A stretch of DNA of 64,000 nt from Acidobacteriota bacterium (GTDB lineage Bacteria > Acidobacteriota > Terriglobia > Terriglobales > Acidobacteriaceae): assembly GCA_021793405.1 (NCBI GenBank), contig JAJYSV010000010.1:1-64000 (forward strand), given 5' to 3'. Shown here piece by piece: positions 20,912-55,066 of this stretch (positions are counted from its first letter, which is position 1; every line of letters starts with the position of its first letter). A model generated the notes under the pieces. It saw only the letters and a program-made list of their open reading frames with translations. It did no database searches and was not told the origin of the DNA. A program made the position numbers and the translations under genes.

Positions 20912-21191
20912 TTGCGAATCCTCTGCCGCGGAATTCATTGTCACGATCGCTGTACAGTGGATCGACGATCGAGACAGCGCCCATTTCCTCACTCAGAATA
21001 CAGGCCTGAAACCATGGAATGTTTTCTAGCGTAGTTTCCCACCTGAATACATGCCGTGTTGACAGTCATTCCAGCATGCTAGAGCGCTGCCGTCGAGTTA
21101 GCAACTGCGTAACAAGTTTGATGTTGCGAGTCTTGACTGCACCGATGATGGTATTGTGGAGTTCGCGTAGAGTCGACGACGGAGGATGAAG

Positions 21192-23657
21192 ATGCAACGC
21201 AGAAGCTTTTTAAAGTTCAGTACGGCCGCATTGACTGCTTCGGGGTATGTGGGGTCTGGGTGGCTACGAGCCTTGACGACGGGGGATGCAATAAAAGGGC
21301 ATCAGACAGGCTTGGCATCTTCCTTCTCATCAAGCCGACGAACTGTCGCAGACATTAATCTCAAGGATGCAGTGGTCGTAACCCGGCCAGGGCAGCTACC
21401 GAACGCGGAACGGACAGCAGCTAAAGTACTCACAGAAGAATTGGCGAAACGAACTGGCATTCACCTAAGGACTTCGACTAGTTGGCCCACGAACACGCCG
21501 GTACTCGCGATTACTTCGGAAGCCGCAGTATCCACATGGGGCCGTTCGATTCCTACAAGAGAGATGGGCAACCGGCCAGAAACGCGTCCGGATGGATATC
21601 GACTCTATGTGGAGTCTGGAAACGGCACCCCTCCCGTCGTATGGGTCATCGGCGGGGATGCGAGAGGTGCTTTGTTCGGCGTCGGAAATCTTCTTCGAAG
21701 ACTGGGCTGGGAACAGGGCGGAATCTACATTCAATCCTCTCTGGATCTGGCCTCTGCTCCGTCATACCCGATTCGGGGACATCAACTCGGCTACCGAGCT
21801 CAGGCAAATTCCTACGACGCATGGGATTCATCTCAGTTTGAACAGTACATTCGGGAACTCACATTTTTTGGCGCAAACAGCATCGAAGGGATTCCTTTCC
21901 AGGACGACAGGAAAACCCCTGTTATGAAGTTTCCGCGCCGGCAGATGAATCGAGACATTGGTGAAATCTGCTCCCGCTATGGCCTGGACTATTGGGTGTG
22001 GCTGCCCGCCGATTTCGACCTGAAGAATTCCAGGCTTCGCACCCAACTGCTCGACCAGAGCGAACAGTTTTTTAGGGACACTCCGACTTTTACAGCAGTT
22101 TCATTCCCAGGTGGCGATCCGGGCAAGAATCCACCGGAGCTTGTATTTCCATTCCTGGATGATCTCGCGAAGCGCATGCAGCCGCTCCATCCAAACGCGA
22201 AGATTTGGCTTTCACTCCAGCAGTTCACAAACCCAGAGGTTGATGCGTCATACGACTACATCGTTCGGAACTCGCCAGCGTGGCTAGGAGGACTGGTAGT
22301 CGGCCCATCCAGTCCTCCGATTGAGGAAATGAGGAATCGACTTCCACAACAATATCGCCTGAGGTTATATCCAGACTTAACCCACAATAAACTGTCCCAA
22401 TATGAGGTGCAGGATTGGGACCAGGCTTTCGCGCTCACGGAAGGACGCGAGGCCGTCAATCCGCGGCCGGTTGAGTATGCGCAGATATTCGTGCAGCGTG
22501 CCGGTTACAGCGACGGCTTCATCTCCTATTCGGATGGCGTTCATGATGATGTGAATAAAACAGTCTGGAGCGCATTAAGTTGGGATCCGACACAAAGCGT
22601 GCCCGATATCCTGATCGACTATAGCCATGTGTATTTCAATCCTGGTGTGTCAAAGGAATCCGCGAACAGCATCTTGGCATTGGAGAAGAATTGGCACGGA
22701 CCACTGCTTACCAATGGCGCCGTAGAAGGAACCTTGCTCCAATGGCGGCACTTACAGAGTCAAGAGCCCCAGCTCGAGGGAAACTGGCGCTGGCAAATGT
22801 GCCTTCTGCGCGCAAATTACGATGCATACGTTCGACATCGTTTGATTCATGAGACCCAGCTCGAAATCGAAGCCAACACGATCCTCCTCGAAGCATCCGC
22901 CCTTGGCAGCGCGGTGGCAATGAAGCAGGCCGGGGACGTGCTGAATCGCGCTGTGACCCAGCCGGTGAGTCCTGAGCTGCGCGCAAATATTGAAGATCTC
23001 TGCAACAAGCTCTTCCAATCGATTGGACTGCAAACGAGTGTACCCAAGTATTATGCGATCGGCGAAGAGCGCGGCGCGGTTCTTGATTTCGTGGATTATC
23101 CCTTGAACAACCGCTGGTGGCTTGAGGATGAATTTGAGAAAGTTAAGGCATTCAGCTCCGAGGATGCAAAAATTCATCGTCTCTATAATCTCGCAACGTG
23201 GGAGCGTCCCGGACCCGGCAGCTTTTATGATGATCTCGGAAACCTGGATAAATCTCCACACGTAGTGCGTTGCGAGGTGACTACCAATAGCCCAACCCTG
23301 ATTAGAGAACCGGGTCCGACGTTCTGGTGGTGGGACGAGGGCAAGAGTCGGACCCGGCTTACCTGGCAGGTCACAATGTGGCCGATCGGGGTTGTCTACG
23401 ACGGACTCGATCCGGCGGCAACGTATGTCGTGCGATCCACAGGCTATGGAGAACCACTTATGCGCATCAACGGCGAACGTGTCCAGCCAACCGTCTATGG
23501 AAAAATCATGGGGGAATATACGGAATTTCCGGTGGCATCGCAATATGTCCAGAACCGGAAGATAGTGCTGACCTGGGATGCACACACAGACGAGAAAAAC
23601 CTAAACTGGCGGCATCGTTCGCGACTCGCTGAAGTCTGGCTCATCAAGAAGAACTGA
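21192..23657 (+). CDS. Tat-exported glycoside hydrolase-like protein, family unclear
   Basis: An 821-residue protein with a Tat signal (QRRSFLKFSTAALTASG). The ATG at 21192 has GGAGG six bases ahead; an ATG at 21186 overlaps that site. Residues about 40-175 resemble the alpha/beta domain that precedes the barrel in GH20, GH67 and GH84 enzymes (GDARGALFGVGNLLRRLGW). The middle (about 190-480) looks like a TIM barrel, starting YPIRGHQLGYR and containing WVWLPADFD. A helical part (about 500-620) and a C-terminal beta-rich domain follow. Catalytic residues cannot be named. It is probably periplasmic and acts on a glycan; alpha-glucuronidase-like or hexosaminidase-like activity are both possible. 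Confidence 0.65.
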   Translation: MQRRSFLKFSTAALTASGYVGSGWLRALTTGDAIKGHQTGLASSFSSSRRTVADINLKDAVVVTRPGQLPNAERTAAKVLTEELAKRTGIHLRTSTSWPTNTPVLAITSEAAVSTWGRSIPTREMGNRPETRPDGYRLYVESGNGTPPVVWVIGGDARGALFGVGNLLRRLGWEQGGIYIQSSLDLASAPSYPIRGHQLGYRAQANSYDAWDSSQFEQYIRELTFFGANSIEGIPFQDDRKTPVMKFPRRQMNRDIGEICSRYGLDYWVWLPADFDLKNSRLRTQLLDQSEQFFRDTPTFTAVSFPGGDPGKNPPELVFPFLDDLAKRMQPLHPNAKIWLSLQQFTNPEVDASYDYIVRNSPAWLGGLVVGPSSPPIEEMRNRLPQQYRLRLYPDLTHNKLSQYEVQDWDQAFALTEGREAVNPRPVEYAQIFVQRAGYSDGFISYSDGVHDDVNKTVWSALSWDPTQSVPDILIDYSHVYFNPGVSKESANSILALEKNWHGPLLTNGAVEGTLLQWRHLQSQEPQLEGNWRWQMCLLRANYDAYVRHRLIHETQLEIEANTILLEASALGSAVAMKQAGDVLNRAVTQPVSPELRANIEDLCNKLFQSIGLQTSVPKYYAIGEERGAVLDFVDYPLNNRWWLEDEFEKVKAFSSEDAKIHRLYNLATWERPGPGSFYDDLGNLDKSPHVVRCEVTTNSPTLIREPGPTFWWWDEGKSRTRLTWQVTMWPIGVVYDGLDPAATYVVRSTGYGEPLMRINGERVQPTVYGKIMGEYTEFPVASQYVQNRKIVLTWDAHTDEKNLNWRHRSRLAEVWLIKKN

Positions 23658-24767: not shown

Positions 24768-26018
24768 ATGTCGCTGAGTTCTGGGCCAGAAAAACCGGCC
24801 ATTTCCCTCTCCCGCCGTGGATTTCTGCTGGGGGCTTCTGCATTGACCATAGAGCGCTCGACGATTAGCTCAGCACTGGGTTTGAAAGGTAACCGAAACA
24901 GGCAAAGAATGTTTGCTTATGTAGGCACAGATACCAGCGCGATCGACGGCAGAGCCAATGGACAAGGGATATATCTGTTCGAAATGAATCCCTCGACTGG
25001 TAGACTCACACTCATTAAGCTGGCAGCCGAGACTGAAAACCCTTCGTGGCTATCTGCTCACCCCTTAGAACCATACCTATATGCGGTCCATCAGATTGCA
25101 GACTTTGAAGGCAGGAGCGGGTCCGTGAGCGCCTATGCCATTGACCGCTCGAACGGCGATCTTCGATTATTAAATACCGTAAGTTCCCAAGGTGCGGGTC
25201 CGGCTCATCTGAGTATCGACGCTTCCGGGAAGTACGTCTTCGTTGCCAACTATTTTGGCGGAAGCATCGCCGTACTTCCAATCCTGCCAGGAGGCATACT
25301 TGGCTCCGCTATCTACATGCATCAGGATCAGGGCTCTGTCGGAAGTAAGAAATCAACCGATGCACCGCCCGGCAGCTATGCGTTTAGTGGACACGACGCT
25401 CCGCATGCGCACATGATCCATTCAGACCCCTCGAACCGTTTTGTATTACAAACAGATTTGGGCCAAGACCGCATTTACAGCTATCGCTTGGACGACCATA
25501 CAGGAAAGTTGGCGCCGGCGCCCACACCCTTCGTATCGCTTCCGCCGGGAGATGGACCACGTCACTTTGCGTTTCACCCCAACGGTCAATGGCTTTATTC
25601 CATTCAAGAAGAAGCTTCTACCGTCGTATTTTTCCATTTCGATCCAGCGACCGGGTCACTCGTTTCGCAACAAACGATTTCAACTCTTCCCCCGGGGTTC
25701 GCGGGAACCAGTTTTGGCTCGGAAATCATGCTGTCAGGAGACGGTCGCTTTCTTTATGCAGCCAACCGGCTACATAACACGATTGCTATATTTTCGATCG
25801 ACACCAACGGAAAACTGATAGCGATTGGCGAAACATCGACTCTGGGTGATTATCCGAGTCAGTTCAATATCGATCCAAGTGGAACTTTTCTCTATGCATG
25901 TAATCAACGAAGCGATCAGATTACTTCTTTTCGGATCGACAAAGAGACAGGCCTCTTGACATTTACGGGCCAATACGTGCCTGTTGGCAGTCCAACGTGC
26001 ATCATCTTCACGATATGA
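24768..26018 (+). CDS. Tat-exported lactonase (6-phosphogluconolactonase-like beta-propeller)
   Basis: A 416-residue protein with a Tat signal around SLSRRGFLLGASAL (residues 14-27) and then a seven-bladed beta-propeller of the PGL/YbhE type: YVGTDTSA, the GPAHLSIDASGKYVFVANY blade motif (about 143-161), GPRHFAFHPNGQWLY and FLYAANRLHNT. Family members hydrolyse sugar lactones, classically 6-phosphogluconolactone; the Tat signal instead points to an unphosphorylated lactone in the periplasm (inference). GAGAGAGGC precedes the ATG. Its stop codon overlaps the next start as ATGA, so it is translationally coupled to the MFS gene. Confidence 0.85.
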   Translation: MSLSSGPEKPAISLSRRGFLLGASALTIERSTISSALGLKGNRNRQRMFAYVGTDTSAIDGRANGQGIYLFEMNPSTGRLTLIKLAAETENPSWLSAHPLEPYLYAVHQIADFEGRSGSVSAYAIDRSNGDLRLLNTVSSQGAGPAHLSIDASGKYVFVANYFGGSIAVLPILPGGILGSAIYMHQDQGSVGSKKSTDAPPGSYAFSGHDAPHAHMIHSDPSNRFVLQTDLGQDRIYSYRLDDHTGKLAPAPTPFVSLPPGDGPRHFAFHPNGQWLYSIQEEASTVVFFHFDPATGSLVSQQTISTLPPGFAGTSFGSEIMLSGDGRFLYAANRLHNTIAIFSIDTNGKLIAIGETSTLGDYPSQFNIDPSGTFLYACNQRSDQITSFRIDKETGLLTFTGQYVPVGSPTCIIFTI

Positions 26019-27424
26019 CCGTCCCTCGTGTCGCCGGCGGCCGCCATTCCGCGGAGATCAGACGGGAGCGTCGCAGCAGTCTACAGGATTCTAGCCTGCT
26101 GATCCAACCAACGCCTCCAACGGGATCAGAGATCTATCCCTGGGTAGTCGTGTTCTTGCTTTGGCTGGTTTGCTTTTTTAGTTATGCCGACCGGCAGGCA
26201 TTCTTTTCGATCTTCCCTTTGTTACAGAAACAAATGAATCTCACTACCGTGCAACTTGGCGTATTAGGTTCCTCGTTCGCAGTGGTATATGGACTTGGAG
26301 GACCGTTCGCCGGCTATCTCGTCGACAGGATTCGTCGCAAGACAGCAATTCTGGGCGGGTTGGAGTTATGGAGCGTCATCTGCGTGCTGTCGGCGCTCTC
26401 GCGAGACTTCTTTCAACTGCTAATCTTTCGCGCCGCGGAAGGAATTGGCGAATCCATTTATTATCCTGCTGCGCTATCGATGATCAGCGACTATCACGGC
26501 AAGCGCACCCGCTCGCGAGCCATGGGAATTTTACAGACCAGCGTCTACGCAGGGACCGTGGGAGGCGGATATTGGGCTGGCGCCATCGCACAACAGCACG
26601 GCTGGAGAGCCGCTCTCTTTGTATTTGGTGGACTCGGTTGTCTGCTGGGGCTGCTTTTAATTCGTCTGCTACGCGAACCAGTTCGAGGAAGCGCAGACTC
26701 AACATTCAACCAGGACCAACTTACATGCCAGCCGCAGCCGCCCGCGCCACTTTCATTGCGCGCCATTCCCTCCCTTCTCAAGATCAAATCGTTGTTGACT
26801 ATTACAGCCGTGTTCGCGTGCGCCAATTTCGTAGCCATGGTGCTTCTGGCGTGGATGCCGATGTATCTCTATTCGCGTTTCCACCTCAGTCTATCGATGG
26901 CGGCTTTCGATGCGGCCGTGTATCCGCAAGTCGCCAGCATGGGAGGCTCTCTGTGCGGGGGCTACCTGGCTGATAGATTGGCTAGGCAAACCCGCCGCGG
27001 ACGTGTTGCCGTACAATGTGCCGGGGTCCTTATCGGAGTGCCATTCGTCATACTCTGCGGACTTGGGGGTTCTCTGACGCAGGTGATCGTCGCGCTCATT
27101 TGTTGGGGATTCTTTAAGGGTATGTATGATTCGAATATCTTTGCTTCGGCGTTCGACGTGGTCCCAATAGAAAGTAGAGGAACTGTCAGTGGATTGATGA
27201 ATTGTGTGGGTTGGTTGCTTGGGGGGGGAATCGCGCCGGCATTGGTTGGTTTTCTCGCGGTGTATATCTCGCTGGGACACGCGATTGCCTGGTCGGCGAC
27301 TTTTTACGCGTTGGCCGGCATTTTGCTCATGTTGACCATGCGATATTTTTTAGATAACGATATAGACAGGTTGCAGCGACCGGAATTCATAACTAACGGC
27401 AGTCCGCATGACTGCCAAACATAG
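26015..27424 (+). CDS. MFS transporter, probable sugar-acid or sugar carrier
   Basis: A 469-residue major facilitator with 12 hydrophobic segments, starting after a hydrophilic N-terminus of about 45 residues. The loop between segments 2 and 3 reads GYLVDRIRRKTAI, the MFS signature position; FFSYADRQAFFSIFPLLQ is close to the anion:cation symporter branch. The ATG at 26015 forms an ATGA overlap with the lactonase stop; a GTG at 25997 is possible but less likely. Placement after the lactonase and before an oxidoreductase suggests import of an oxidised sugar. Confidence 0.85.
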   Translation: MTVPRVAGGRHSAEIRRERRSSLQDSSLLIQPTPPTGSEIYPWVVVFLLWLVCFFSYADRQAFFSIFPLLQKQMNLTTVQLGVLGSSFAVVYGLGGPFAGYLVDRIRRKTAILGGLELWSVICVLSALSRDFFQLLIFRAAEGIGESIYYPAALSMISDYHGKRTRSRAMGILQTSVYAGTVGGGYWAGAIAQQHGWRAALFVFGGLGCLLGLLLIRLLREPVRGSADSTFNQDQLTCQPQPPAPLSLRAIPSLLKIKSLLTITAVFACANFVAMVLLAWMPMYLYSRFHLSLSMAAFDAAVYPQVASMGGSLCGGYLADRLARQTRRGRVAVQCAGVLIGVPFVILCGLGGSLTQVIVALICWGFFKGMYDSNIFASAFDVVPIESRGTVSGLMNCVGWLLGGGIAPALVGFLAVYISLGHAIAWSATFYALAGILLMLTMRYFLDNDIDRLQRPEFITNGSPHDCQT

Positions 27425-27453
27425 ACATGGTTTGCATGTCATCGGGGGGGGCA

Positions 27454-28773
27454 ATGGTAACTCGACGAGAATTTCTTGACTCAGTTGCGATGGGAGCAGC
27501 TGGTTTGGCTGTTGGGTCGACCGCAAAGAGCTATGCTCAGATCCTGGGATCGAATGATCGACTGAACTTTGCCGTCATCGGGCTTCATGGACGTGCGTAT
27601 GCTCATCTTTCGGCGCTCAAGGCAAACAGCAATGCCATCCGGATTACGCATGTTTGTGACGTTGATAGCAATACTCTCGAGAAGTTCGCTGATGACGTTC
27701 AGCAACAGATGGGTTACGCTGCTGCAACCAACAAAGACTTCCGCGAAATTCTCTCGCAGAAAGACGTGGACGCCATTACGATTGCCACGCCTGATCACTG
27801 GCATACACCCATGGCCATTCTAGGACTGCAAGCAGGAAAAAATGTCTATGTGGAAAAGCCATGCAGTCACAATCCCGCCGAGGGCGCATTGTTGGTCCAG
27901 GCCCAGCGGAAGTATGGCAAGCTGGTGCAGATGGGAACCCAGCAACGTTCTTCACCCCATACCATCGAAATCGTTGAAAAGATTCACGGCGGTCTGATCG
28001 GCAGAGCCTACTTTGCCAAGGCCTGGTACAGCAATGTGAGGAAGTCAATTGGCATAGGGAAAGTAACACCCGTGCCTCCGCAACTCGACTGGGATTTATG
28101 GCAAGGGCCGGCGCCGCGCAAGGCGTATAAAGACAATGTGCAGCCGTATAACTGGCATTGGTTCAGAATCTACGGCACGGGCGAAACGCTGAACAATGGC
28201 ACGCATGAAGTGGATGTATGCCGATGGGCGCTCGATGTGGATTATCCGCAACGGGTTGCATCATCTGGAGGAAGATACCAGTTCAAAGATGACTGGCAGT
28301 TTTACGACACGTTGATTACCAGCTTTAACTATCCTGACAAGATGATTTCCTGGGAGGGAAAGAGCTGTCAGGGGATGAAGTACTATAACCGCGATCGGGG
28401 CTCGACGATCATGGGAACAACTGGAAGCGTTTTGGTCGACCGCGATGGGTACGAGGTCTACGACCTCAAGGGACATAAGACGAGCGAGTTTAAGACTGGC
28501 ACGACAACCTCCTCTTCGGACCTGACTGGCCGTGACTCCATGACCGACGCCCATTTCGCGAACTTTATCGCGGGTATTCGCACGGGTGCGAAACTCAATG
28601 CTCCTGTGTCGATAGGGAACGTCTCGGTCACGATGCTTCAGCTCTCCAACATTGCATGGGAAGTGAATCGTGAACTGCGGCTCGACACGGCGGACGCGAA
28701 AATTCAGAATGATCCCGAAGCCATGCAGATGTGGGGACGAGAGTATGAGACCGGTTGGGCTCCGCAGATATGA
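27454..28773 (+). CDS. Tat-exported Gfo/Idh/MocA-family oxidoreductase
   Basis: A 439-residue protein with a Tat signal (VTRREFLDSVAMGAAG). Residues about 35-160 form the NAD(P)-binding domain, with DVDAITIATPDHWHTPMA and the family hallmark VEKPCSHNP (catalytic-site lysine in EKP). The C-terminal domain has the NGTHEVDVCRWAL segment. Such exported members (like glucose-fructose oxidoreductase) hold their cofactor tightly, allowing redox chemistry in the periplasm. The ATG at 27454 follows a G-rich ribosome site. It is the third gene after the GntR regulator, 29 bases behind the MFS gene, so it probably forms a lactone-producing unit with the lactonase (inference). Confidence 0.87.
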   Translation: MVTRREFLDSVAMGAAGLAVGSTAKSYAQILGSNDRLNFAVIGLHGRAYAHLSALKANSNAIRITHVCDVDSNTLEKFADDVQQQMGYAAATNKDFREILSQKDVDAITIATPDHWHTPMAILGLQAGKNVYVEKPCSHNPAEGALLVQAQRKYGKLVQMGTQQRSSPHTIEIVEKIHGGLIGRAYFAKAWYSNVRKSIGIGKVTPVPPQLDWDLWQGPAPRKAYKDNVQPYNWHWFRIYGTGETLNNGTHEVDVCRWALDVDYPQRVASSGGRYQFKDDWQFYDTLITSFNYPDKMISWEGKSCQGMKYYNRDRGSTIMGTTGSVLVDRDGYEVYDLKGHKTSEFKTGTTTSSSDLTGRDSMTDAHFANFIAGIRTGAKLNAPVSIGNVSVTMLQLSNIAWEVNRELRLDTADAKIQNDPEAMQMWGREYETGWAPQI

Positions 28774-29222
28774 TCTATCCTTCTCTCGTTTGCACGTTTA
28801 TATATTTGGGAGCTAGAGGGCGCGATCTCGGTGAACATTTGCGCCCGGCATCTGTTATAGGGGTTGCGCGCAACGGCAGGCTTGTCCTCCGCTGATATCT
28901 ACCGTGCGAATATATCCGTTGGAAATGATGATTTGGATTCGACCTCTACGCAACGGGAATTTGCCCGACCTGGAGTTCCTTCGACAAACTCCAACCGCTA
29001 CGTCTGGAAAGGATCCTCCCGCGCGACGCAGCTAGATCATACCTCCAAGTCAGTGTCAGATTTAATGGTGGCCAGATTTTAGTCTGCGCGCTGCTATAAT
29101 TGCGACCGCACAAGCTTCTTCTCTGTTGAGTATTTAGCAAGTTGACACTCTGGAGATGGAATGTATACAGTACGGTGGTTGTTCTGCCACTTTGAAAATA
29201 GCATGGTTAGGGGAGACGAGTA
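28774..29222. other. 449-bp gene-free region before the paired membrane proteins
   Basis: No convincing gene: the short frames here have no ribosome site or recognised motif. The right end holds a good promoter (29142-29169) for the two membrane protein genes. Confidence 0.5.
29142..29169 (+). promoter_or_regulatory. Sigma-70-type promoter for the paired membrane protein genes
   Basis: TTGACA at 29142-29147, a 16-base spacer, and TATACA at 29164-29169, 53 bases before the GTG start at 29223. The -10 box overlaps GTATAC (29163-29168), the core palindrome of many GntR/FCD operators, so the regulator at 23843 could act here (inference). Confidence 0.55.
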
Positions 29223-30599
29223 GTGAATAGCCCCAAGGCGAAACGGTGGGAATTTATCGTCTTGCCTAGCCTGGCAATGTCGCTGGGATGGGGCCTCCGT
29301 GGTCAAGTTGGACACTCACCAGGTGCCATGATCCCGGGGGCACTCGTAGCGTTGGTCTTGTGTAGCCTCCTTCGCGAGAAACAACTCTCCCGCGGGATGG
29401 CTGTCGGACTAGGCGCTATTGCCTTTGGTTATGGGGCTACTATGACAACGCAGGATACGGCGGACTTGGCGCTGCGTTGGATTTCTCATTCAGGTTCCAC
29501 CCTAACCATGGCCTTTACCTGGCTAGCAATTAAAGGGGCCGTATGGGCATTCTTCGGCGGAGTGCTGATAGGGCTGGCATTGGCTGCCTCTCATTACCGT
29601 TGGAGAGATATTATCCTTGGCATGATCCTAATGGTGGTGAGTTTTCCCATTGGATGGATGTTGATCAACAAGCCGAGGCCGGTCTACTTTTCGGTTACCC
29701 GCCACGAAACCTACGGAGGCTATTTGCTTGGTGGGATCGTGCTTGTTGCTTGGTTAACCATCCGTGGCCGGACAAAAATACCACTCTTACTTGGCGTATG
29801 TGCAGCCGTTGCCGGTGCAATCGGTTTGCCGCTCGGTGCTGCGTTGGCTGGCGCCGGAAGCCACACAGCATATGTGGGAAGGTGGTATGACTGGTGGAAG
29901 GTTCTGGAGACTACTTTCGGCGCTTGTATGGGGGTTGGCCTCGGCATCGACACCTACCTGCTGCAAGACAGATTTCCGGACGCAACTGCATCGAAGGGGC
30001 CAGTGAATGAGCCACTTTCATCAGCATGGAGTACGGTCCTTGGCTTGTTGATTTGCGGAATCTTCACAGTTGTAACTCAGTACAGGTTGAGCGGGTGGCT
30101 GCTCTTCGGCTCCGTGTTGCTGTGCATCGTATTTTACTTCCCTAGGGAGGTCGGCTGGCATGTCGGAATCACGATGACTATTTATGTCACCGCCGTAAAC
30201 ATTATCACCTACTGGAACCGCGAACAAAGGATAGGAAACCTCGCATTGCTATGGACCCTAGTTTGGCTCTTGACACTCGCCGTCTCTTGGAAGGTATCTG
30301 GTTGGCGAGACGAAAAGGATTGGGTTGTTCGCAAAGCCTTTGTATTCCTGATGTGGACTATCGTCGCCCTTACAGCTCTGAGAGGCTTGATAATCCGCTC
30401 GGTGGTACATGCGCCTACTCACGCCGTAGCCGCGGCCGGCGGCCTGTGGACCTATACCGTGGGGACCTGGGCAAGTGCACTCGTGGTCCAAGTCATTCTC
30501 GCCATGATGGCACTCCTGCTAACGTTGCTGATGAGGCGACGATCATTCGATGCCAGTTCCTTGCATGATTCTAGTGGTGGGAACATTCAAGTAACCTGA
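29223..30599 (+). CDS. Polytopic membrane protein of unknown function (paralogue 1, GWGxRGQxGH motif)
   Basis: A 458-residue protein starting at GTG behind GGGGAGA. It has about 11-12 hydrophobic segments. Near the N-terminus it carries SLGWGLRGQVGHSPGAMIPG (about residues 20-39), and near residues 185-240 a glycine-rich part ending WWKVLETTFGACMGVGLGI. Both features recur in the next gene, so the two are paralogues with a shared, possibly functional loop. I do not recognise a named family; the topology would suit a carrier or a membrane-bound transferase. It ends 32 bases before its paralogue. Confidence 0.75.
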   Translation: MNSPKAKRWEFIVLPSLAMSLGWGLRGQVGHSPGAMIPGALVALVLCSLLREKQLSRGMAVGLGAIAFGYGATMTTQDTADLALRWISHSGSTLTMAFTWLAIKGAVWAFFGGVLIGLALAASHYRWRDIILGMILMVVSFPIGWMLINKPRPVYFSVTRHETYGGYLLGGIVLVAWLTIRGRTKIPLLLGVCAAVAGAIGLPLGAALAGAGSHTAYVGRWYDWWKVLETTFGACMGVGLGIDTYLLQDRFPDATASKGPVNEPLSSAWSTVLGLLICGIFTVVTQYRLSGWLLFGSVLLCIVFYFPREVGWHVGITMTIYVTAVNIITYWNREQRIGNLALLWTLVWLLTLAVSWKVSGWRDEKDWVVRKAFVFLMWTIVALTALRGLIIRSVVHAPTHAVAAAGGLWTYTVGTWASALVVQVILAMMALLLTLLMRRRSFDASSLHDSSGGNIQVT

Positions 30600-30631
30600 T
30601 TATCTTTTGTTACGGATCACTTCCTCTAGAC

Positions 30632-32221
30632 ATGGACACTGAAGGATCGAATTTGCGGATCTGGATGTTTGTGCTTCTTACCGGCCTATCGGTCTCGATT
30701 GGCTGGGGCATACGAGGCCAGTTCGGACACGAGTACGGGGCCGCACTGCCCGGTGCGCTTGGGGGTATGGTGGTGGCCCTGCTTAGTGGCCGCGAGGACT
30801 GGCGCAGACGTGTCCATTTTTTTGCTGTCCTTGGCGCTATTGGTTTCGCCTTCGGCGGAAGCATGTCCTACATGAAGGACATTTGGTATGCGCATTCGTC
30901 TGATCCTTCGACCGTGTTGTACGGCTTTGCTTGTATATTCTTGCTCGGCTTCATTTGGGCAGCTCCCGCCGGCGCGGGCATCGCGTTAGCCGCGTTTCTG
31001 GATCGCGAACAGTTGACTAAGTTTTATGTGCCCCTATGTTCTGTGTTCATCGCCTGGTACCTACAAAGTATCTGCTGCGATCTGATCTGGAACGGCGAGG
31101 GCGGAAGGCGGGCCCGATTCTTCGCAGGCTATGAGATGAGCGCGATTCTGGCGGCTGTTGTTGCTCTCGGATTCTTCCTGCTTTGGAAAACATACCGGGG
31201 TGTCGGAACTTTACTAATACTCTATATGTCCATCGGATGGTGGGCCGGAAAGTTCATATTCATCGAGTTGCTGCATTTGCGTATGAATCCTCCGCGTGAA
31301 GAGACCTGGGCATCTTGTCTAGGTATGGTGTTCGGCATTTTAGCGTGCTGTTGGCAGAGACGTCTCGGCGGCATCGCATTCGCTACCCTGGGAGTCGGGT
31401 TCCTCGGGGGCATCGGATTCGCACTCGGAACCGCAGTGAAACTTCTCGTCATGTCGAGCGGTCTTACCACAAATTGGCACAGCATTATGGAGCAGACCCA
31501 AGGACTGTTTCTTGGCGTAGCCATCGCCATTATCTTCCAGGCCCTGATACGAAGAGCGCCCCAGTTCAGCGACGATCCTCCAGTGCGACGCTGGACCGAA
31601 GTGTTCAGCGTTGTGTTCGTTCTCTGGTTGCTGCCGTATCTGAATTTCCGTCTCAGTCCCGGAGAATGGGTGGGTGAAATTAAGGGTCTGCACTCTAAAC
31701 TATATGGCATCAACATTGTGAGCAATTTACTACCCTCGCAGGGGTTTGTTGGGTGGCTGGATTTCGTCGCTCTCGTGCTTGGGTTCGCGCTCGTGCTGCT
31801 TTTAGTCTTGCATCGGCGGCGTCCGCTTCCTTGCATTCCTGTGAGTTGGATGGGTAAAGGGCAGCTATTCTATCTGGTCTTTCTTTGGCTTATTGTCGCG
31901 ATGAATTTCATGCTGGTACTGCCGCGATTCACACAGATTCGCTTGGTAACCGAATGGTGTATCACCCTGAATGCTACCGCTTGTTCGGTTCTTCTCATCT
32001 ATGGTTGCTTCGCGCGCCCGTCTCAAGTGTTGCAATATGTACCCGACGGAAGTTACGCATCGTCGATCCGCAAGGTCGTGATCTTCGGGTTACTAGGAGC
32101 CGTGGTTGTGTCGTTGCTAGGTTTTGGAATCAAGCTCGCATGCTGGGGAAATCAGCCAGCGGGAGTCTTGGGTGTCGATCCGATCCGGTTTGGACCGAAC
32201 AATACGAATACAATCCGATAA
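30632..32221 (+). CDS. Polytopic membrane protein of unknown function (paralogue 2, GWGxRGQxGH motif)
   Basis: A 529-residue protein with about 12-13 hydrophobic segments. It opens with SIGWGIRGQFGHEYGAALPG (about residues 22-41), matching the gene upstream, and has the same second block as FLGGIGFALGTAV ... WHSIMEQTQGLFLGVAIAI near residues 250-300. It is about 70 residues longer than its paralogue, mainly in the second half. There is no strong ribosome site at the ATG, consistent with translation in the same operon. Conserved charged or polar residues in the shared motif (R, Q, H) are candidates for substrate contact. Function unknown. Confidence 0.75.
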   Translation: MDTEGSNLRIWMFVLLTGLSVSIGWGIRGQFGHEYGAALPGALGGMVVALLSGREDWRRRVHFFAVLGAIGFAFGGSMSYMKDIWYAHSSDPSTVLYGFACIFLLGFIWAAPAGAGIALAAFLDREQLTKFYVPLCSVFIAWYLQSICCDLIWNGEGGRRARFFAGYEMSAILAAVVALGFFLLWKTYRGVGTLLILYMSIGWWAGKFIFIELLHLRMNPPREETWASCLGMVFGILACCWQRRLGGIAFATLGVGFLGGIGFALGTAVKLLVMSSGLTTNWHSIMEQTQGLFLGVAIAIIFQALIRRAPQFSDDPPVRRWTEVFSVVFVLWLLPYLNFRLSPGEWVGEIKGLHSKLYGINIVSNLLPSQGFVGWLDFVALVLGFALVLLLVLHRRRPLPCIPVSWMGKGQLFYLVFLWLIVAMNFMLVLPRFTQIRLVTEWCITLNATACSVLLIYGCFARPSQVLQYVPDGSYASSIRKVVIFGLLGAVVVSLLGFGIKLACWGNQPAGVLGVDPIRFGPNNTNTIR

Positions 32222-32324
32222 CAACCGCTAGGTATTTCTGCGATGCTGCGTCCCGCTTCTGTCGGGCTAAGAAGATTACGATTCCAGAGCCAGGCTGGTA
32301 GAGATGGGTCAGATTCTTTGCCTC

Positions 32325-33119
32325 TCAAACACTTACAGAGGCCTTCGCAAGAATGCCTCCATCGCAAACCAGATGGGAGCCGGTAACATACGAAGATTCT
32401 TCGGAAAGTAGCCAGGCTACAGCGCGCGCCGGATCTTCAGGCTCTGCTAACCTGCCCAACGGAATCTCCTTGGAGAGTTGCGCACGTAACCGTATAACTT
32501 CGGCAGCATCAATATTTCTCCACATCAATGGAGTTTCCGTGGACCCGGGTACGATAGCATTCACTCGAATTCCATAAGATGCATAATCGATGGCCATGCA
32601 ACGAACCAGCGATGAGATGCCGCCCTTGGTTGCGCTATAAGCACCAGCTGCACCTGCCGCCAACGCTACGAATCCAGTTGGAGAAGATGTGCAGACAATG
32701 GAGCCGGGAATGTTGGCCGCTATCATGTGTCGGAGGCCATGTTTGCAAGAAAGAAAGACCCCGGTCAGATTCGTTTCAACAACCTGGCGCCAGGTGGCTG
32801 CAGGAAGCTCATGAATTAAACCTCGAATTCCGATTCCAGCGTTGGCGAAGAGCCCATAGGAATATCCCAGCCGTAAAGAAATATCTGCGAATGACTTCTC
32901 TACCTGCTCTTCTACGGCCACGTCACAAGGCAGTCCCAGTGCCTTTCCGGCCCCGCTCCGCAATGCATCTTCTGCTGTTCTTTTTGCCGCATCGGCATTG
33001 ATATCGAGTACACCGATGTTATCGCCACGCGCCGCACAAATCAGTGCTACTGCTCTGCCAATGCCGCTGCCACCGCCTGTTATAACAATTGTGCGTGTCG
33101 TCGTGAAATTAGAAGCCAT
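32325..33119 (-). CDS. Short-chain dehydrogenase/reductase
   Basis: NAD(P)-dependent oxidoreductase of 264 residues. The cofactor loop TGGGSGIGRAVAL (about residues 14-26), the NAG strand motif ANAGIG, and the catalytic serine with YSATK are present, as is VNAIVPGSTETP. AGGAGG lies ahead of the ATG. Sugar, polyol or sugar-acid dehydrogenation would suit the setting, but SDR substrates cannot be read from sequence. It is the last gene of a minus-strand run that includes the secreted glycan enzymes, 68 bases behind the GH63-like gene. Confidence 0.9.
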   Translation of the reverse strand: MASNFTTTRTIVITGGGSGIGRAVALICAARGDNIGVLDINADAAKRTAEDALRSGAGKALGLPCDVAVEEQVEKSFADISLRLGYSYGLFANAGIGIRGLIHELPAATWRQVVETNLTGVFLSCKHGLRHMIAANIPGSIVCTSSPTGFVALAAGAAGAYSATKGGISSLVRCMAIDYASYGIRVNAIVPGSTETPLMWRNIDAAEVIRLRAQLSKEIPLGRLAEPEDPARAVAWLLSEESSYVTGSHLVCDGGILAKASVSV

Positions 33120-42635: not shown

Positions 42636-43928
42636 GTGCAGCAGTCAAATATGGAAATCGTGCATAAGCCAGACAGCAGGATCGGCAGGATGCGTTGGTT
42701 TGTCTGCGCTCTTCTATTTCTGGCGACGACCACGAACTACATGGATCGCCAGGTACTCGGCATTCTCGCTCCCGTGCTGCAAAAAGACCTGCACTGGACC
42801 GAAGAAAGCTACGGCAATATGATTGCCTGCTTCACGTTCGCTTATGGGCTGTCCTATATCCTGGCGGGGCGAATCATAGACCGCCTTGGAACGCGCAAGG
42901 GGTATGGTCTTTTCGTGGCCATCTGGAGCATATCTTCGGCGGCACATGCATTTGTGAATAGCGCTTTTGGATTTGGCGTCGCCCGGTTCTTTCTAGGCAT
43001 CGGGGAGTCTGGGAACTTCCCGGCCGCATTGAAGGCAGTCGCGGAATGGTTCCCTAAAGAAGAACGCGCGCTCGCAACAGGCATCTTCAACTCTGGCACC
43101 AACTTTGCTGCCTTGCTGGCTCCCATAATCATTCCCTTCATTGCGCTCCGATGGGGATGGCGTTATGGCTTTATCTTCACAGCGAGCATGAGCATGCTTT
43201 GGCTTATCGGATGGCTTCTGTTCCCATATAACCGCATGCGTCCCGATGAGACACAGTTGACTGACAGCCGTCTCACACCTGCGGAACTGGCGGAAAAACG
43301 TTCGCTTTGGTCGTTTTTGACCGACCGTGGAACCATTGCCTTCGCCGGTGCCAAATTTCTTACCGACCCCGTCTGGTGGTTTTATCTTTTCTGGGGACCG
43401 CTGTTTCTCACCAGCCGATTCCACATTTCCATTGCCCAGATGAGCATTCCTCTCGTCGTCATTTACTTCGGTGCCAGCATTGGAAGTATCTTCGGAGGCT
43501 GGCTCTCTGGATTCTGGATCAAGCATGGGCGTTCGATAAATTTCAGCCGAAAGATGGCCATGGGCCTATTCGCATTGGCTGCTCTGCCCGTCACCTTTGC
43601 CGCCCAGGTTTCGACCTTGTGGATGTCCGTGTCTCTGATTACGATTGCAGCGGCCGCCCACCAGGGTTTCTCGTGCAACATTTTTTCCACTCCTTCCGAC
43701 ATGTTCCGCGCGCGGTCTGTGGCGACGGTGGTGGGAATCGGGGGAACGGCGGGCGCACTGGGCGGAACGGTATTTGCAGCAGTCGCCGGATTTCTACTCA
43801 ACCGCACCCATAACTATTCCCTATTGTTCGCCGTCTGCGGATGCAGCTATGTTTTGGCAATGGTGCTTTTCCAACTGCTGGTGCCGCAGCTCCGGCATCA
43901 GGACAGTGGCGCCGAACGGAGCGCATGA
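42636..43928 (+). CDS. MFS transporter of the anion:cation symporter (hexuronate) type
   Basis: A 430-residue, 12-segment MFS protein close to ExuT/GudP-type carriers: RMRWFVCALLFLATTTNYMDR at the N-terminus, then GRIIDRLGTRKGYG as the inter-helix signature and FFLGIGESGNFPAA in segment 4. These carriers take up glucuronate, galacturonate or glucarate with protons. The GTG at 42636 has GGAG eight bases upstream; an ATG at 42651 is the alternative. It precedes an altronate dehydratase gene by 100 bases, which supports hexuronate as substrate (inference from context). Confidence 0.87.
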   Translation: MQQSNMEIVHKPDSRIGRMRWFVCALLFLATTTNYMDRQVLGILAPVLQKDLHWTEESYGNMIACFTFAYGLSYILAGRIIDRLGTRKGYGLFVAIWSISSAAHAFVNSAFGFGVARFFLGIGESGNFPAALKAVAEWFPKEERALATGIFNSGTNFAALLAPIIIPFIALRWGWRYGFIFTASMSMLWLIGWLLFPYNRMRPDETQLTDSRLTPAELAEKRSLWSFLTDRGTIAFAGAKFLTDPVWWFYLFWGPLFLTSRFHISIAQMSIPLVVIYFGASIGSIFGGWLSGFWIKHGRSINFSRKMAMGLFALAALPVTFAAQVSTLWMSVSLITIAAAAHQGFSCNIFSTPSDMFRARSVATVVGIGGTAGALGGTVFAAVAGFLLNRTHNYSLLFAVCGCSYVLAMVLFQLLVPQLRHQDSGAERSA

Positions 43929-53311: not shown

Positions 53312-55066
53312 CTACCAGAACATGAGGTTGAGGACGAAGAAAATGACGATCACAATCCCGGCCCAGAACCAATGGTTTTTATACAGCACCATCGGTTCCT
53401 GATGTGGAATCACCGTGGCCCCGTAGACCAGCCCATTCAATTCCGATTCCGGTTTCGGCGTGGTGAACAAGCTGACCACCACCGTCACCAGCACACAGGC
53501 AATCCATGCCCACAGCGCCCGATACAAATTTTCCGCCATGGTTTTAGCATGGACGGACAGAGCCACCTCAGCCAGTGCCGCGGGATTGAAATGCACCCAT
53601 AGATACAGCCCCACCGAAACCACCGTGCCCGCCAGCAAACCCCAGAAGCCGCCGGCGGATGTCGCCCGCTTCCACAACATACCGAGAATCACCGTGCCGA
53701 ACAGCGGCGCGATAAAGAAGCTGAACAGCGCCTGCACGTAATCCATGATGCTGGCGAACTGCATCACCAGGTAGGCCGCGCCGATGCTGACCAGCACGCC
53801 CAGAATGGTCGACCAGCGTCCCATCGCAACATAGTACCTGTCAGCGGCGTCCTTCCGGATCTGCGCCCGATAAATATCGTAGGTCCACACAGCCGAAAAC
53901 GCACTGACATTGCCTGCCATGCCGGACATGAATCCAGCAATCAGCGCCGTGATCCCCAGCCCCAGCAGACCCGGCCCGCAATATCGCACCAACATCAGCG
54001 GCAGCACGGCGTTGTAGCTGTAGGAGCCGGCGACGTGCGCGGCTAAGGTCTCAGGCAACAGATGCGGAAGGACTGCCAAGCCTAGCAGACCGGGCAGAAT
54101 CACGATGATTGGCACCATCATCTTGAAGCCCGCGCCAATGATCGGCGCCATCTGCGCCGCGCGCAGGTTCTTGGCGGAAAGAACGCGCTGCACGACTAGA
54201 AAGTCCGTGGTCCAGTAGCCGAAGGCAATGACAAAGCCTAGCCCAAAAACAATACCGGTCCAATGCACGCCCATCGGGTTCGAACTGAACGAGCCCAACC
54301 CGCGCCACAGATGCGTCAAGTCCTGCCCGGGAAAATTATGGTGGATGCGGGCCACCATTCCGCTCCATCCCCCGGTCTCGGTCAGCCCCAGAATCGGGAC
54401 CAGCAGCGCTCCCGCCCAGATCAGTACAAATTGCAGCACTTCATTGAAGATGGCCGAGCGCAGGCCGCCCAGCGCGACATACACTGCCACTGTGAGCGAC
54501 GAAACCCATATGCTGAAGTGGATGTTCCAGCCCAGCACCACCTTCATCACCAGCGCCATGGCGTACATGTTGATGCCGCTCATCAGAACAGTCATGACGG
54601 CGAAGGAAACCGCAGCCAGCAGACGACTCGACTCTCCGAAACGCAGCTTCAAATATCCCGGCACCGAATGCGTCTTCGACACGTAATAGAAGGGCATCAT
54701 GACCAGGCCGAGAAACAGCATAGCCGGAATGGCGCCGATCCAGTACCAATGCGTCGCCAGAATGCCGTACTGATAGGCTGCCGCGGCCCAGCCCATCAAC
54801 TCCAGTGAGCCCATATTGGCGGAGATGAAACTTAATCCTGCAATCCAGGCCGTCATCTCCCGGCCAGCCAGAAAAAATTCCTCGCCCGTGCTACTGCGCT
54901 GTTTGAGATAAAAACCAATGTAGATCACCATCGCGAAGTAGACCGCGATAATGGCTACATCCAGCGGGGCCAGATGCGCCATATGATCGGGCATCGTGGT
55001 CATGAAAAAAAGGGTCAGTGCGTGCGGGGCGCGAGATACGGCGAGGGCACCTGGCGAAACATTCAT
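53312..55066 (-). CDS. Sodium:solute symporter (SSS family), probable pentose carrier
   Basis: A 584-residue protein with about 14 hydrophobic segments, related to SGLT-type sugar carriers. The loop after helix 1, KQRSSTGEEFFLAGREMTAW, and GLSFISANMGSLELMGWA (the sodium and substrate site in helix 1/2 of the fold) are typical, as is VYVALGGLRSAIFNEVLQF. The start at 55066 has GGAG 14 bases upstream; an ATG at 55003 (MTTMPDHMAHLAP) would drop 21 non-hydrophobic residues and is equally possible. Position between araD and the small membrane protein supports L-arabinose or a similar pentose as substrate. Confidence 0.9.
   Translation of the reverse strand: MNVSPGALAVSRAPHALTLFFMTTMPDHMAHLAPLDVAIIAVYFAMVIYIGFYLKQRSSTGEEFFLAGREMTAWIAGLSFISANMGSLELMGWAAAAYQYGILATHWYWIGAIPAMLFLGLVMMPFYYVSKTHSVPGYLKLRFGESSRLLAAVSFAVMTVLMSGINMYAMALVMKVVLGWNIHFSIWVSSLTVAVYVALGGLRSAIFNEVLQFVLIWAGALLVPILGLTETGGWSGMVARIHHNFPGQDLTHLWRGLGSFSSNPMGVHWTGIVFGLGFVIAFGYWTTDFLVVQRVLSAKNLRAAQMAPIIGAGFKMMVPIIVILPGLLGLAVLPHLLPETLAAHVAGSYSYNAVLPLMLVRYCGPGLLGLGITALIAGFMSGMAGNVSAFSAVWTYDIYRAQIRKDAADRYYVAMGRWSTILGVLVSIGAAYLVMQFASIMDYVQALFSFFIAPLFGTVILGMLWKRATSAGGFWGLLAGTVVSVGLYLWVHFNPAALAEVALSVHAKTMAENLYRALWAWIACVLVTVVVSLFTTPKPESELNGLVYGATVIPHQEPMVLYKNHWFWAGIVIVIFFVLNLMFW

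Follow-up and report, generated by a model that had tools for sequence, protein, structure and literature searches.

The described systems that come closest to the proteins reported here are the sugar-acid transporters of the major facilitator superfamily (MFS), TIGR00893 type, such as GudP, GarP and ExuT. Here we analyze two adjacent genes, P0001 and P0002, from a 64,000-nucleotide stretch of a contig of an Acidobacteriaceae bacterium (JAJYSV010000010.1, positions 1 to 64,000), which as a whole we call the window. An earlier note, made from the letters of the sequence, had described their products as paralogous membrane proteins sharing a GWGxRGQxGH motif and had suggested that the tandem pair forms a heterodimer. 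Our analyses place both proteins in a real, conserved membrane family for which no name was found, with the import of sugar-derived carboxylates as a candidate function and with little to favor an obligate partnership between the two.

Results

The two genes lie on the same strand, 32 bases apart, and from this short gap we consider them probably co-transcribed. They were assigned from their open reading frames (ORFs), their homologues and AlphaFold2 models:

29223-30599, + strand: P0001, clade A member, 458 residues, GTG start, about 14 membrane helices in the model
30632-32221, + strand: P0002, clade B member, 529 residues, about 15 membrane helices in the model

Both products are polytopic in confident models, in keeping with their first description as membrane proteins, and presumably reside in the inner membrane. 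The N-terminal motif that had drawn attention to the pair, GWG[LI]RGQ[VF]GH..GA..PGAL, is read in both ORFs (SLGWGLRGQVGHSPGAMIPGAL in P0001 and SIGWGIRGQFGHEYGAALPGAL in P0002). The likeness of the two proteins extends over nearly their full length and is not a chance one, because BLASTP aligns them over 120 residues (E = 2e-14) and a profile-profile comparison of 10 clade A rows with 63 clade B rows covers 388 columns (99.9% probability, E = 3e-34). Three blocks are shared:

29286-29345, + strand: P0001 block 1, residues 22-41, GWGLRGQVGHSPGAMIPGAL
29700-29720, + strand: P0001 block 2, residues 160-166, RHETYGG
29892-29933, + strand: P0001 block 3, residues 224-237, WWKVLETTFGACMG
30701-30760, + strand: P0002 block 1, residues 24-43, GWGIRGQFGHEYGAALPGAL
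31289-31315, + strand: P0002 block 2, residues 220-228, PPREETWAS
31472-31516, + strand: P0002 block 3, residues 281-295, NWHSIMEQTQGLFLG

Block 3, the second shared block of the earlier note, has the same spacing in both proteins (W224-x4-E229-x3-G233-x3-G237 in P0001; W282, E287, G291 and G295 in P0002). Block 2, which that note had missed, reads R160-x-E162-x-Y164 in P0001 and PPREETWA in P0002. Both proteins carry the three elements that define the family (GWGxRG...GAMxPGA, R-x-[ED]-x-W-A-G and W-x4-E-x3-G-x3-G), with departures in block 2 (YGG in P0001, WAS in P0002) and in block 1 of P0002 (GAALPGA).

The blocks are conserved across the family. In an alignment of 74 rows, from which a short second copy at locus L034 was left out, the residues Gly22, Trp23, Gly24, Arg26, Gly27, Gly30, Gly34, Ala35, Gly39, Gly71, Trp108, Arg160, Glu229, Gly233 and Gly237 (P0001 numbering) are the same in every row, and the tryptophan of block 3 is kept in 69; the conservation of GWGxR is partly by construction, because LxxxxGWGxR stood in the search pattern, and the rest of block 1 and all of blocks 2 and 3 lay outside it. 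All 10 clade A rows have Glu at position 162, where clade B mostly has Asp (61/74 overall). The glutamine of the window proteins at position 28 is Asn in 57 rows. His31 is kept in 69 of the 74 rows, including all 64 outside clade A, the clade A rows being divided between His (5) and Gly (5); among the 106 distinct family proteins whose motif could be read, 105 have the arginine, 83 the histidine, and 23 a glycine in place of the histidine. The Arg-Gln-His set from which a substrate or proton path had been proposed thus changes its membership, since most members have Asn for the Gln and part of clade A has Gly for the His, and what stands is a charged set at one membrane face. The constant members are Arg26, Arg160, Glu/Asp162 and Glu229, two arginines and two acidic residues spread over three blocks, and their position is suggestive of a substrate path.

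No named family was found for these proteins, as had been supposed from the sequence. Neither P0001 nor P0002 matched a Pfam or NCBIfam model at cut-off, and up to E 5 the only match was of P0001 to DUF2975 (E 0.097, 13 bits against a cut-off of 27), a chance-level likeness of hydrophobic helices. The same explanation applies to the models DUF2567, TIGR04222 and MdtO, each of which matched one of 75 scanned members at 0.004-0.006, the only Pfam or NCBIfam matches in that set and again at chance level. Sequence searches of the PDB gave one 33-residue match at 0.052 for P0001 and none for P0002, and the 75-row family profile found nothing there up to E 5. Viral contigs held no match to the P0001 patterns, and a plasmid collection none to a Spirosoma member. 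Among the matches listed from open PMC papers, none describes such a protein as far as titles and abstract starts tell, the one paper matching the motif strings being, by its listing, on a T-cell receptor; a description may exist elsewhere.

Structure models built from family alignments are of high confidence for both P0001 (predicted local distance difference test 87.4, predicted template-modeling score 0.89) and P0002 (90.2 and 0.93). Foldseek found no solved structure for either at E<=1e-3, with template-modeling scores of 0.07-0.22 in the 50 rows listed; this search had no positive control, and an absent match is not proof of a different fold. The top-ranked structures (NKCC1, CLC, MATE and LeuT for P0001; P-glycoprotein and complex I for P0002) resemble the models in having many helices, with E above 1e-3. 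In the VIA structure comparison the best scores were Z 6.9 for P0001 (131 aligned residues at 6.2 A, a G-protein-coupled receptor) and Z 4.9 for P0002 (78 residues at 6.7 A, TRPC6, tied with others), values within the range common for helical models that single out no convincing family, and a family missing from the VIA listing is not thereby excluded. A viral structure library gave nothing at E<=1e-3. Both models are consistent with a fold that has no solved relative, which is short of proof of a new one.

When the model helices are mapped onto the sequence, each block lies at, or immediately ahead of, the beginning of a glycine-rich helix, and in both proteins all three lie on one side of the membrane. 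P0002 has two more helices than P0001 between block 1 and block 2, so that parity is kept and the blocks stay on the same side. Lysine plus arginine counts per protein are higher on the side of the N-terminus (22.0 against 15.6 in 59 clade B rows, 17.2 against 11.1 in 10 clade A rows), an excess that suggests a cytoplasmic N-terminus and periplasmic blocks. In these models the three block loops are probably on the periplasmic face.

For gene context we used 104 loci outside the window in which a family gene was called (two pairs among them are a single contig taken twice), and 103 of these had a called gene at -1; neighbors were called by a greedy longest-ORF rule, under which single calls may be wrong. 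An HpcH/HpaI aldolase stands at -1, on the same strand as a clade B gene, in 12 of the 103, a fraction that counts loci of both clades and has no background rate from random loci beside it; in one further locus the aldolase is at -2, on the opposite strand. A profile built from six of these aldolases detected no additional copy in the 1004 called neighbors at E<=1e-5. In L099 a glycoside-hydrolase-like gene comes first, followed by the aldolase and then the clade B gene. The 13 aldolase loci belong to Bacteroidota (7, in Spirosoma and Larkinella), Verrucomicrobiota (5: L058, L081, L099, L107 and L112) and Acidobacteriota (1: L092, from an Acidobacteriales metagenome-assembled genome, MAG), and all 13 hold a clade B gene, that of L107, a fragment, being assigned by motif only. 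Four of the aldolases were scanned against NCBIfam and matched HpaI, 2-dehydro-3-deoxyglucarate aldolase and 2-keto-3-deoxy-L-rhamnonate aldolase, all below cut-off. HpcH_HpaI is also the commonest Pfam family in the 106 operon neighbors submitted to Pfam out of 141 listed at +-1 or +-2 (9/106, all other families at most 4). Genes near the Larkinella and Spirosoma copies also belong to similarity clusters of which the scanned members are SDR, Zn-dehydrogenase, OMPdecase/HUMPS and Gfo/Idh proteins. Adjacency to a gene of sugar-acid catabolism was found for clade B only, in a minority of loci.

The family is sporadic in soil and water bacteria. A scan of genome contigs by pattern and tblastn left 117 relatives out of 133 matches to the pattern, and the 80 best were used; going by record titles, their sources are Acidobacteria, Verrucomicrobia, Planctomycetes, Hydrogenedentota, Poribacteria, Chthonomonadales and Bacteroidetes, one Latescibacteria, one Acidimicrobiia MAG, and others. 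A search with P0002 matched 12 of 200 genomes of the window's class at E <= 0.001. Profile censuses at E <= 1e-10, which scored 3-8 candidates per genome and may have missed copies, found the family in 48/399 genomes of the class, 2/200 of the window's family (the second match being a broken copy from a different species of the genus) and 4/149 of its phylum (the window's own genome being counted in these and in the P0002 search), and in 1/145 of the phylum of L099, that one being the centre itself. This sparse, patchy distribution suggests gene transfer and loss, with transfer inferred from the patchiness only. The G+C content of each gene is 0.54, near the 0.55 of the window, so base composition alone gives no sign of transfer. 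A contig labeled 'Arcobacter sp. SulCav' (L040) holds a family protein identical to that of L114 (G089:C18), from a genome placed in the window's class, and the Arcobacter label appears to be mistaken.

In a tree of 75 proteins, long starred branches divide P0001 and its short relatives (clade A) from P0002 and relatives that are mostly longer (clade B); the tree was made by a quick method with midpoint rooting, and one long-branch row (L042_7857) is placed unsurely. These deep clades and long branches rule out a recent tandem duplication as the origin of the pair. The nearest row to P0001 is a protein of a Terracidiphilus MAG (L035; 59% by BLASTP). The homologues of P0002 include one of 71% in the same Terracidiphilus MAG (G527) and three of about 38-39% over 437-450 residues, and in the tree it groups with five Poribacteria sequences. 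A broken P0002-like copy lies near a contig end in another species of the window's own genus (L134 9082-9843, fragments of 88% over 87 residues and 78% over 60), with a GH38 gene about 1.6 kb away.

Internal repeats are not claimed: self-comparison of 34 long clade B proteins gave a best E of 0.013 (202-309 against 297-374), and secondary alignments between the clades gave 0.06-0.17. Long clade B members have, ahead of block 2, an insertion with a weak likeness to the region after it (in L070, for example, within residues 202-374, with that same self-match E of 0.013); it may be a duplicated helix unit.

Around the pair, the window holds a glycan-use island, as the earlier note had recognized. 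Several of the island matches are below cut-off:

21186-23657, + strand: glycoside-hydrolase-like protein, weak GH20b likeness below cut-off, with weakly GH67N-like relatives
25997-27424, + strand: MFS transporter, best model a D-galactonate transporter, below cut-off
27427-28773, + strand: Gfo/Idh oxidoreductase, glycoside 3-dehydrogenase-like, below cut-off, the gene before P0001
29142-29171, + strand: possible sigma-70-like promoter, TTGACA-18-TACAGT, 10/12 match, in the gap before P0001
36469-38841, - strand: GH92 glycoside hydrolase

Further members are a GntR-type regulator and 6-phosphogluconolactonase-like, SDR, glucosylglycerate-hydrolase-like and beta-N-acetylglucosaminidase-like proteins. 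The pair had also been credited with its own promoter. One 10-of-12 site of the right kind does stand 5' of P0001, but the number of sigma-70-like sites in 28700-32400 (3, against a mean of 2.5 in shuffles) is not above chance.

Carbohydrate genes also lie within two genes of the P0001 relatives in all five loci looked at. The neighbors are GH92 (L029), MGH1/GH63-like (L033), BNR (L034) and alpha-L-fucosidase (L036) genes, and weakly GH67-like genes on both sides of the Terracidiphilus orthologue of P0001 (L035); L029 was placed by BLAST to P0001 (41%) and not by the tree, and L036 is outside the five-row group of P0001. The gene directly 3' of the L035 orthologue encodes a protein 61% identical to that of 21186-23657 in the window. 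Relatives of this glycoside-hydrolase-like protein, mostly about 810-860 residues long, recur near the membrane family in three phyla (L035, L081, L099, L105, L084 and L093). Of four members of this group scanned, two gave weak GH20b or GH67N matches below cut-off and two gave no Pfam match, and PDB profile matches were weak; they are possibly an unnamed glycoside hydrolase family.

Discussion

We propose that the family imports sugar-derived carboxylates (uronates, aldonates or aldarates) by secondary transport, a proposal that we regard as evenly poised between right and wrong. In its favor stand the confident polytopic models, the constant charged residues, the placing of all three blocks on one side, the aldolase genes beside clade B members and the carbohydrate genes near relatives of P0001. 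The case is most explicit for clade B, the clade of P0002, and the substrate class of P0001 is less certain. The substrate would enter from the periplasm, where the face formed by the three conserved loops, each leading into a glycine-rich helix, would hold its carboxylate and hydroxyls through Arg26, Arg160 with Glu/Asp162, and Trp224 with Glu229. Two arginines balanced by two acids could provide coupling to protons or sodium. Once inside, the sugar acid would be degraded by cytoplasmic dehydrogenases and an HpcH/HpaI-type aldolase. P0001 and P0002 would then act as separate permeases or separate homo-oligomers.

Several observations weigh against such an importer. The searches connected these proteins with no known transporter family or fold. 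An MFS carrier (25997-27424) is already present in the island, two further ORFs look, from their sequence, like MFS and SSS carriers (42636-43928 and 53312-55066), and L081 has a RhaT-like symporter of its own nearby. The aldolase link is absent from clade A loci, and Spirosoma and Larkinella, which are closely related, account for 7 of the 12 aldolase loci. Context is diverse overall, the 106 operon neighbors matching 110 Pfam families. The positive-inside signal is modest; the conservation of Arg26 is partly built into the search, and one relative found by profile (L129) has Ser in its place. An enzyme, too, could have conserved loops at a membrane face, and the genes near one clade A subgroup point in another direction, as described below.

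A membrane enzyme with its active site on the periplasmic face, such as a hydrolase or transferase whose substrate is a sugar, lipid-linked or freed, and whose catalytic residues are the Arg, Glu/Asp, Glu and mostly His, would explain why the constant polar residues sit in or beside loops on one face and not in mid-membrane. It would also suit the carbohydrate gene context and the histidine found in every row outside clade A and in half of those within it. However, the replacement of this histidine by glycine in 23 of 106 proteins means that it is no universal catalytic residue, and neither the isolated one-member matches of the 75-member Pfam and NCBIfam scan nor the Foldseek search at E<=1e-3 brought up a candidate, so that we consider an enzyme unlikely. 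More improbable still is an accessory or sensor protein, for respiratory assembly or carbohydrate sensing, recruited to different operons. The diversity of neighbors would fit it, as would the clade A subgroup with RGFIGGGPLGAMIPGA / GGGPLGAMIPGA, which in several loci lies near CtaA-like, COX1 and COX2 genes and shows that family members are not always next to sugar genes. Four loci of this subgroup, L041/L116 (one contig), L119, L121 and L126, share a neighboring gene of one BLAST cluster, which is at +2 in L119 and at +1 in the other three; the L126 gene of that cluster is CtaA-like. Two further loci, L040/L114 (again one contig) and L124, have COX1- and COX2-like genes at positions -3 and -4, and one member of each of these clusters was scanned. 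Yet the oxidase context was seen in that one subgroup only, where it may be simple synteny, and the adjacency to aldolases recurs in three phyla.

The heterodimer suggested earlier, taken here as an obligate permease made from the two tandem genes, draws on the 32-base spacing on one strand, on the homology of the two proteins, and on the co-occurrence of both orthologues in a Terracidiphilus MAG and of both clades in five of eight class genomes with a clade B member (the window's own included; co-occurrence was read from places and lengths, with three candidates scored per genome). The pair is nevertheless not a regular tandem: a clade A and a clade B gene in tandem on one strand were found in none of the 104 other loci and are seen in the window alone. 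Other multi-copy loci hold two clade A genes in tandem, the second short (L034), or two converging members (L042), and in L095 and L103 one family gene is split into two ORFs. In the Terracidiphilus MAG the orthologues of P0001 (59%) and P0002 (71%) are on separate contigs, the former in a glycoside hydrolase locus and the latter on a contig of 8.9 kb with a divergent homocysteine S-methyltransferase gene upstream; in the four other class genomes with both clades, the window's own aside, the members are likewise not adjacent, and the remaining three of the eight showed no clade A member. Larkinella rosea (G534) has a short relative about 21 kb from its clade B gene. Co-occurrence may reflect a joint role for which adjacency is not needed, but an obligate heterodimer is not supported, and we consider it very unlikely indeed.

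It is tempting to extend the importer proposal to a widespread, unnamed transporter superfamily with a fold absent from solved structures, in which clade B imports sugar acids for HpcH/HpaI aldolases, clade A handles glycan-derived sugars, and genes spread horizontally among acidobacteria, verrucomicrobia, planctomycetes and Bacteroidota. We offer this wider scheme tentatively, as one that is rather more apt to fail than to hold. Soil and water bacteria have many glycan-degrading enzymes but few known importers; if the family does consist of transporters, it would close part of this gap and contribute a membrane fold that has no solved relative. Pairs of aldolase and clade B genes would predict the substrate class.

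When P0001 and P0002 are set beside the MFS sugar-acid transporters of the GudP, GarP and ExuT kind, to which the carrier at 25997-27424 is assigned, no match ties them together. MFS models match neither the pair nor, in Pfam, the 75 members, Foldseek gives no match at E<=1e-3, and the MdtO model that matched one member at 0.006 is, we take it, not an MFS model. What the two groups have in common is a polytopic architecture and a place in sugar-acid gene clusters, from which a shared job would be possible.

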